From positions 682,001-746,000 of the forward strand of contig JABTUK010000002.1 of NCBI GenBank assembly GCA_015075405.1: a stretch of 64,000 nucleotides of DNA, given 5' to 3'. The notes beneath the pieces were generated by a model. The model saw only the letters and a list, made by a program, of their open reading frames with translations. It was not told the DNA's origin and did no database searches. Shown here one piece after another: positions 44,467 to 45,458 of this stretch (the stretch's first letter is position 1; every line of letters starts with the position of its first letter). Both the position numbers and the translations under genes were made by a program. This stretch comes from Anaerolineales bacterium. GTDB taxonomy: Bacteria; Chloroflexota; Anaerolineae; 4572-78; J111.

Positions 44467-44587
44467 AAGTATTCCCGATGAAGCTACAGAATTAAAAGAG
44501 CGCACTTTGACCTAATGCGCTCTTTTGTCCTAACGTTGGGCCGGGTGGGAGTCGAACCCACACGAGGGTTAAGCCTCGGGGGATTTT

Positions 44588-45289
44588 CTTACTACTATGG
44601 CTTTCGCCACCCTTTACAGGTTTGTAGTCTGGACTTTCTCTTGACCTTAGGTGTCCGCCGTAGGTCTCGACCGTCAAGTCTCTACACCTTTTTCTTGCCG
44701 CCTCTATAATTGTCAGTTAAAGCGTGACAATTAGGACACAAAAGTTCGATATTGGGCAGTGTATTATTTGTCCTGTCCCCATCCTTGTGATGGAGTTCCA
44801 GGGATATGGGTTGACCTAGCCACTCTGTATTCCCACAACACTCACATTGGTATTTCTTGAGGCCACTACGAAGAAGTCTATTCTTTAGTCTCCAAGTGTT
44901 CTCTAACTTCTTGTGGACTAAAACTTCTTCCAAAGGTCGTATACCGTAAGTATGTGTTTTTCCTCTAAGGATGGCCTGTCCGAGAAAATGAGAGGTATCC
45001 AGATTAAGCACCCGGATACGTTTCTCTATGGCCTCATAATTTCCACCAGAGGGAGTCAAACCTATTCTTTTAAGAACTGCCCTTATCGAGCGACTACTCT
45101 TGACAGCATCTTCCAATTGTTCATCGGTATATTTTCTTGATTTCACAAATTACCGCAATTTGAAGAGGTAGCCAAATTGTCGCCGACAAAAAATTTGGCT
45201 CGGGGTTGCCACTATCATTGTCTGCTGAGGTTTCCCCGAATTTGGCCGAATTCACTCAGGAAGTTTCCTACCCTGGTGCTCAAACGCTT
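44588..45289 (-). ncRNA. Group I self-splicing intron (IC3-like) in tRNA-Leu(UAA)
   Basis: 702 nt on the minus strand. Conserved core elements are visible: P (TTCGGGGAAACC, 45240-45229), Q (GGCAACCCCGAGCC, 45210-45197), R (GTAGAGACTTGACGG, 44685-44671) and S (AAGAGAAAGTCC, 44642-44631), followed by GGGTGGCGAAAGCCA and the terminal G at 44588. The 5' exon CTT can pair with GAG in TTTGAGC for P1 with a U-G pair at the splice site. The order and sequences resemble the cyanobacterial tRNA-Leu intron. The P6 region is enlarged by an HNH ORF. Confidence 0.92.
44682..45146 (-). CDS. Intron-encoded HNH homing endonuclease
   Basis: 154 aa from GTG 45146 (no clear Shine-Dalgarno site). The N-terminal about 60 residues (YTDEQLEDAVKSSRSIRAVL) look like a helix-turn-helix DNA-binding module. 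The C-terminal half is an HNH nuclease: CECC, then SLELHHKDGDRTNNTLPNIE and LLCPNCHALT, giving two zinc Cys pairs and the H-N-H catalytic residues. It lies in the P6 loop of the intron and its TAG stop (44684-44682) is inside the ribozyme R element. It would cut intronless tRNA-Leu alleles to drive homing; the cut site is not known. Confidence 0.88.
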   Translation of the reverse strand: MKSRKYTDEQLEDAVKSSRSIRAVLKRIGLTPSGGNYEAIEKRIRVLNLDTSHFLGQAILRGKTHTYGIRPLEEVLVHKKLENTWRLKNRLLRSGLKKYQCECCGNTEWLGQPISLELHHKDGDRTNNTLPNIELLCPNCHALTDNYRGGKKKV

Positions 45290-45370
45290 AAGTCCCCTGC
45301 GTCTGCCATTCCGCCACCGGCCCATAATTTTGCGCAGAATATTACAATAAATGCGGGAGATAGTCAAGGT

Positions 45371-45441
45371 AGAGGCGAAGAGGCGAGGACACGAGGAGGC
45401 GAAAGTTTTCCTCGCCTCACGCGCCTTCGCCTCTTTCATCG
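45371..45441. repeat. GAGGCGAAGAGGCG word-palindrome upstream of the kinase
   Basis: AGAGGCGAAGAGGCGAGGAC repeats a 9-mer-like word; GCGCCTTCGCCTCTTTC is the matching right arm. It lies between the tRNA 5' end and the kinase promoter. Confidence 0.65.
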
Positions 45442-45458
45442 TGGTTAAAAAGTAGCAC

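Follow-up and report, generated by a model that had tools for sequence, protein, structure and literature searches.

The window analysed here, a stretch of 64,000 nucleotides (nt) from an Anaerolineales bacterium (assembly GCA_015075405.1, contig JABTUK010000002.1, positions 682,001 to 746,000), carries on its minus strand a tRNA-Leu(UAA) gene that is split, at a site found exactly empty in related genomes, by a group I intron with an intact core, and loop L6 of this intron encodes an HNH endonuclease of a family that is associated with the UAA-anticodon tRNA genes of phages. The interpretation that we consider quite probable is that this intron is mobile, that its nuclease targets the anticodon region of tRNA-Leu, that the system represents a tRNA version of collaborative homing, and that phages are its likely vehicle. 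Textbooks present the tRNA-Leu(UAA) intron as the 'ancient' intron, and it is usually regarded as immobile. An earlier sequence-only reading of the window had recognised the split tRNA and described its intron as being of the cyanobacterial type but occurring outside the cyanobacteria; the open reading frame (ORF) for the HNH protein was absent from that account.

The split tRNA-Leu(UAA) gene

The whole gene spans positions 44537-45323 (minus strand, as for all other features of the gene and intron given below) and it is interrupted between U34 and A35. The 5' exon (nt 1-34, 45290-45323) ends with ...GGGGACTT, and the 3' exon (A35 to A73, with the CCA not encoded, 44537-44587) begins with AAAATCCCC. 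The 702-nt intron lying between them (44588-45289) has a terminal G, its 3' end reading GUAGUAAG|, and the CUU| of the 5' exon faces the GAG of the intron sequence UUUGAGC. As an uninterrupted tRNA-Leu(UAA) gene is present in 15 of the 25 genomes of the order, these genes serve as natural empty sites, by which the exon/intron boundaries are proved, and the location and the U34|A35 split proposed in the sequence-only reading are confirmed to the base. The joined exons agree with the intronless tRNAs of the related genomes, and in one case the intronless gene (genome G005) is identical in every letter to the joined exons of G001, an intron carrier from the same genus as the window genome. With a folding energy of -41.3 kcal/mol, the joined exons give a clean class II cloverleaf, in accordance with the earlier expectation that the tRNA should be functional if it is spliced. 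Among the 46 other tRNAs identified by search and extraction in this 9-Mb genome, there was no uninterrupted tRNA-Leu(UAA), the leucine isoacceptors other than the split gene being CAA, UAG, CAG and GAG only, and because of this the reading of UUA codons in this organism very likely depends upon splicing. A GC-rich inverted repeat is present just upstream of the tRNA gene (45363-45442), for which Rfam gave only chance-level matches to microRNAs.

The ribozyme core and its detection

In a local covariance search, of the kind proposed in the sequence-only reading, the intron matched RF00028, the one general model for group I introns in Rfam, over the full length of the model (33.1 bits, E = 1.9e-6). 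The default Rfam search of the window reported nothing, because the core, split by the ORF, keeps the score under the gathering cut-off, and ARAGORN, when run without introns, detected no tRNA at this locus. Both the tRNA and the intron are thus absent from the output of default searches here, and in annotations UUA-decoding tRNAs may therefore be listed as missing.

The core was also examined in an alignment of 113 bacterial and phage introns, from which L6 was removed and for which the helices were taken from the window sequence. At each position of P3, P4, P7, P8 and P9, standard pairs are formed in at least 107 of the 111-113 introns, with many compensatory changes (e.g. C-G, G-C and U-A in P3; C-G and G-C in P7), and the intron thus has the pseudoknotted P3/P7 core with P4, P8 and P9 that characterises group I, in line with the group I intron and core elements named in the earlier reading. 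The 5' strand of P3 (UCGGCC, 45244-45249) pairs with its 3' strand (GGUCGA, 44667-44672) in 108-111 of 111 introns, again with many compensatory changes, and P4 is formed by UCGGG (45235-45239) and CCCGA (45200-45204). The strands of P7 are GACUU (element R, 44676-44680) and AAGUC (element S, 44632-44636), the P8 stem-loop GACC...GGUC is at 44643-44666, and the P9 hairpin UGGC-GAAA-GCCA (44598-44609) is paired in all 113 introns. The intron is presumably self-splicing.

The HNH nuclease encoded in L6

Two thirds of the intron is taken up by an ORF of 465 nt (44682-45146), which starts with GTG, codes in the sense direction for a protein of 154 amino acids, and lies between P6 and P7 with its stop codon just before P7. 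The protein is an HNH endonuclease of PHROG 10822 (phrog_10822, E 2e-46), and the zinc and HNH residues C101, C104, H120, N132, C137, C140 and H141 are invariant. Its predicted structure (mean predicted local distance difference test score 88) combines a helical N-terminal part with an HNH fold, for which Foldseek found only weak HNH matches in the PDB, the best being EcoKMcrA (E 0.027). The ORF is under purifying selection, with nonsynonymous divergence (dN) of 0.056 against synonymous divergence (dS) of 1.18 in the comparison with G001, and dN of 0.098 with saturated dS in that with genome G019. In the G001 copy, the middle of the protein has been lost by an in-frame deletion, the copy in genome G665 has an internal stop, and the Litorilinea introns of the same clade have no recognisable ORF; such a series of decay stages is usual for homing endonucleases. 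The product is probably a DNA-cutting homing enzyme.

Association of the nuclease family with phage tRNA genes

Homologues of the nuclease were found at 70 viral loci in IMG/VR, and in 52 of these the gene is either inside the intron of a UAA-anticodon tRNA or within 60 nt of such a tRNA, where 3.7 would be expected under random placement within the same loci. When the homologues were clustered at 70% identity, 18 of the 30 clusters were UAA-associated and 8 more touched another tRNA. If the viral and phage loci are taken together (75 in total), the arrangements counted include the following. In 27 loci, the HNH gene abuts the 3' end of the UAA tRNA on the opposite strand, and the intron of the tRNA itself, about 200 nt long, is ORF-less; a nuclease gene of the family that stands free next to an ORF-less intron of its target gene is what collaborative homing calls for. 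In 15 loci the gene is inside the intron of the UAA tRNA, and in 12 it abuts an uninterrupted UAA tRNA. The positions taken by the nuclease gene are loop L6, the 5' portion of the intron, or a site directly at the 3' end of the tRNA beside an ORF-less intron, and the window locus itself represents the captured state, with the nuclease inside the intron. Among the phage proteins, the closest one (59% identity) is from the 595-kb phage LR756511.1, in which the same L6 layout is present, and Gordonia phage GodonK and Rhodococcus phage Francesca have their HNH gene squeezed in between tRNA genes. Group I introns scoring above the Rfam cut-off are present in phage tRNA genes at five loci (L203, L206, L216, L218 and L221). 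According to a 2014 review, every phage intron then known was in a protein gene, despite the many tRNA genes of phages. In a literature search with scant coverage of subscription journals, no published cases of phage tRNA genes with group I introns were found, nor anything relevant on HNH ORFs in tRNA-Leu introns. The presence of close relatives of the nuclease in or beside the UAA-anticodon tRNA genes of many phages suggests that phages help in spreading the tRNA-Leu intron.

Some individual viral loci show other peculiarities. In Dulem virus 42 (L272, PP511876.1), the HNH ORF is inside a tRNA-Leu-like gene and the part of the insert not belonging to the ORF is only about 60 nt, which is too small for a ribozyme; either the tRNA is broken or the insertion has no ribozyme. 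In the 3' part of an 822-nt phage tRNA(UAA) intron (L265), a tRNA-like sequence is apparently nested in the P9 region. The UAA tRNAs of L206, L208, L218, L221, L231 and similar viral loci have a short, class I-like variable loop and not the long arm of tRNA-Leu.

tRNA-Leu introns in other bacteria

A pattern scan over 84,980 species genomes, from which the usual cyanobacterial 3' end was excluded by design, gave at least 120 stretches, and among the matches listed there are tRNA-Leu introns at the same site in Pseudomonadota, Bacteroidota, Acidobacteriota, Bdellovibrionota, Spirochaetota and Chloroflexota. A putative group I intron is also known to interrupt the tRNA-Leu(TAA) of the gammaproteobacterial Beggiatoa and Thiomargarita (PMC4853749). 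Due to these many phyla and published cases, the surprise attached earlier to finding such an intron outside the cyanobacteria falls away. Within the order, the intron is present in 3 genomes whereas 15 of the 25 have an empty site. For the relatives, the stringent RF00028 search was replaced by the pattern search, as it overlooked their Leu introns, the score of which is broken up by an ORF in L6; the pattern search in turn undercounts, and the intron of G087, with a variant T-loop, was recovered only through its protein.

ORF-less members of this intron are common. Where an ORF is present in bacteria, it is in L6 in the sense direction in the window, G001, G019, G087, G591, G623 and L086, in L6 in the antisense direction in G368 (L072), and between the 5' splice site and P2 in Bacteroidales and Flavobacteriales. 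A homologue of the HNH protein is present in 11 of 396 sampled genomes of the class, and those examined are in UAA introns or adjoin the genes for tRNA-Leu(UAG), tRNA-Thr or tRNA-Tyr. In two related genomes, free-standing members of the family directly adjoin tRNA-Leu(UAG) (L199 in G001:C5; L307 in G044). Several beta- and gammaproteobacterial introns (L101, L104, L144, L145, L152, L169 and others) are at the same site in what appears to be tRNA-Leu(CAA), with the 5' exon ACTC| before AAAA.

Phylogeny of the nuclease and of the intron

In the nuclease tree, the sense-strand L6 proteins of the related genomes and the protein of phage LR756511.1 form one clade (support 99/94; 100/92 in a second tree), whereas the antisense protein of L072 groups (96/94) with proteins of phages in which the gene lies on the opposite strand directly next to the tRNA. 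When the arrangements are mapped as labels on the nuclease trees, 26-27 changes are required against a minimum of 8, showing that the nuclease has relocated repeatedly among the arrangements. In the intron tree, a single clade (99/92) unites the introns from the window, G001, G019 and Litorilinea, and those of G000, G001, G019 and G087 come together with Litorilinea; the Litorilinea sister group is consistent with the assignment of the window genome to Chloroflexota. The intron of L072, although from the same class, is apart from the window clade, with introns of Acidobacteriota, Myxacorys and phages (100/99), and the Bacteroidota introns adjoin phage introns having the ORF in the same position (91/93). 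The placement of L303 and L304 in the second intron tree was disregarded, their cores having been cut at an incorrect R element.

These trees also bear on the description of the intron as cyanobacterial-type, for which there is no specific support. The identity of the tRNA and of the insertion site stands. The intron is not ORF-less, and its supported sisters are from related genomes and Litorilinea; the ordinary cyanobacterial introns are in a separate clade, yet in the approximately unbiased test a cyanobacterial sister group of the window intron was not rejected (p = 0.36).

Proposed mechanism and alternative explanations

According to the mechanism that we propose, the intron in the only detected tRNA-Leu(UAA) gene of this genome would be mobile, and the HNH protein encoded in its L6 would cleave or nick tRNA-Leu(UAA) genes lacking the intron, close to their anticodon, after which repair from the intron-bearing copy would insert the intron (homing). 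The nuclease is a member of a phage HNH family that has specialised in tRNA genes, mainly in those whose anticodon is UAA, and it has inserted itself into the same intron at more than one position; phages would be the likely carriers of the intron between bacteria. A number of observations weigh against this interpretation. Both splicing and cleavage are inferred; the RF00028 score of the intron is below the 50-bit gathering cut-off, because the 465-nt ORF splits the core; the intron cores, with about 200 columns, are too few in characters to resolve the deep origin; and no phage intron core has been established as the direct donor. Further, the expectation for the viral loci is a local one, based on random placement in the same loci, and the only control from an unrelated family consists of 10 loci, none within 60 nt of a UAA tRNA (a second control nuclease family had one locus only). 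The free-standing HNH genes beside uninterrupted tRNA(UAA) genes also raise the question of how the target escapes cleavage.

If the intron were instead an ancient element, inherited vertically and common to this lineage and the cyanobacteria, with the HNH ORF a recent or decaying passenger irrelevant to its distribution, then its insertion site should equal that of the cyanobacterial introns, as it does, and both the single clade of the G000, G001, G019, G087 and Litorilinea introns and the cyanobacterial sister grouping left unrejected above would be accounted for. However, vertical inheritance does not sit well with the empty site seen in 15 of the order's 25 genomes, nor with the placement of the L072 intron, from the same class, among introns of other phyla and phages (a single clade of the window-side introns and L072 has a p value of 0.076 and is not formally rejected), and the ORF is under purifying selection; we regard this explanation as unlikely. 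Of the two possibilities raised in the sequence-only reading, a very old intron or horizontal movement, mobility is favoured by the patchy presence of the intron together with its phage-linked nuclease. It could also be suggested that the HNH protein is at present mainly a maturase, or splicing helper, and not a mobility enzyme, as the low dN/dS pattern holds even against the truncated ORF of G001 and a maturase role of intron nucleases has been discussed (PMC3984707). This is quite improbable in view of the invariant HNH and zinc residues, the common occurrence of ORF-less members of the same intron, and the nuclease relatives that stand free beside uninterrupted tRNAs. Lastly, an estimated contamination of 6.38% could point to an assembly or binning artefact in which the intron-bearing contig is foreign to the genome, but this is hardly credible for a contig of 1.96 Mb, whose intron adjoins the same upstream gene as the same intron in G001 and whose exons match the order's own tRNA.

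Comparison with known systems

The cyanobacterial and plastid trnL introns share with the window intron the tRNA, the U34|A35 site and the core order P3-P4-P6-P7-P3'-P8-P7'-P9, but they are ORF-less and only a few hundred nt long, whereas the window intron has an HNH ORF in L6. A known group I intron of another tRNA likewise carries the gene for a nuclease that is directed at the region of the anticodon. However, both the tRNA and the nuclease family are different in that case, the enzyme being of the PD-(D/E)XK type, and we know of no distribution of its family across phage tRNA genes. The Beggiatoa and Thiomargarita gene (PMC4853749) is similar in having a putative group I intron in a non-cyanobacterial host, but at about 350 nt in total it is too short for such an HNH ORF, and no phage link is described for it. 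Collaborative homing, a proposed route to composite mobile introns, is known for phage protein genes, e.g. psbA of cyanophages (Zeng et al. 2009, as treated in PMC3984707 and PMC10448857). While its known targets are protein genes, the target here is a tRNA gene, with free-standing and captured states in both phages and bacteria. T4 SegB, a phage homing endonuclease encoded by a free-standing gene, brings about the spread of a region of tRNA genes (Brok-Volchanskaya et al. 2008, as cited in PMC10448857). It differs from the system described here in belonging to another nuclease family and in the lack of an intron. The family of SegB is GIY-YIG. The nuclease common to the window intron and the phage tRNA genes occurs in free-standing, collaborating and intron-captured states, and a single protein with a single 85-bp target would allow a direct test of how composite mobile introns form and how this intron crossed phyla.

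Other group I introns in the genome and its relatives

The only tRNA-Ile(CAU) detected in the genome is likewise split by a group I intron (L001:1096-1712, corresponding to G000:C3 at about 1258.3-1258.9 kb; RF00028 score 76 bits). On its opposite strand, this second intron carries an HNH ORF that differs from the one in the window intron, and the closest phage relative of this other nuclease (L276) abuts a tRNA with a CAU anticodon. Further group I introns in the relatives (L035, L036, L042, L046, L038, L039 and L041) are in other tRNA genes and in 23S rRNA genes, some of them with ORFs, and one of these other tRNA introns reads as being in Arg-UCU.
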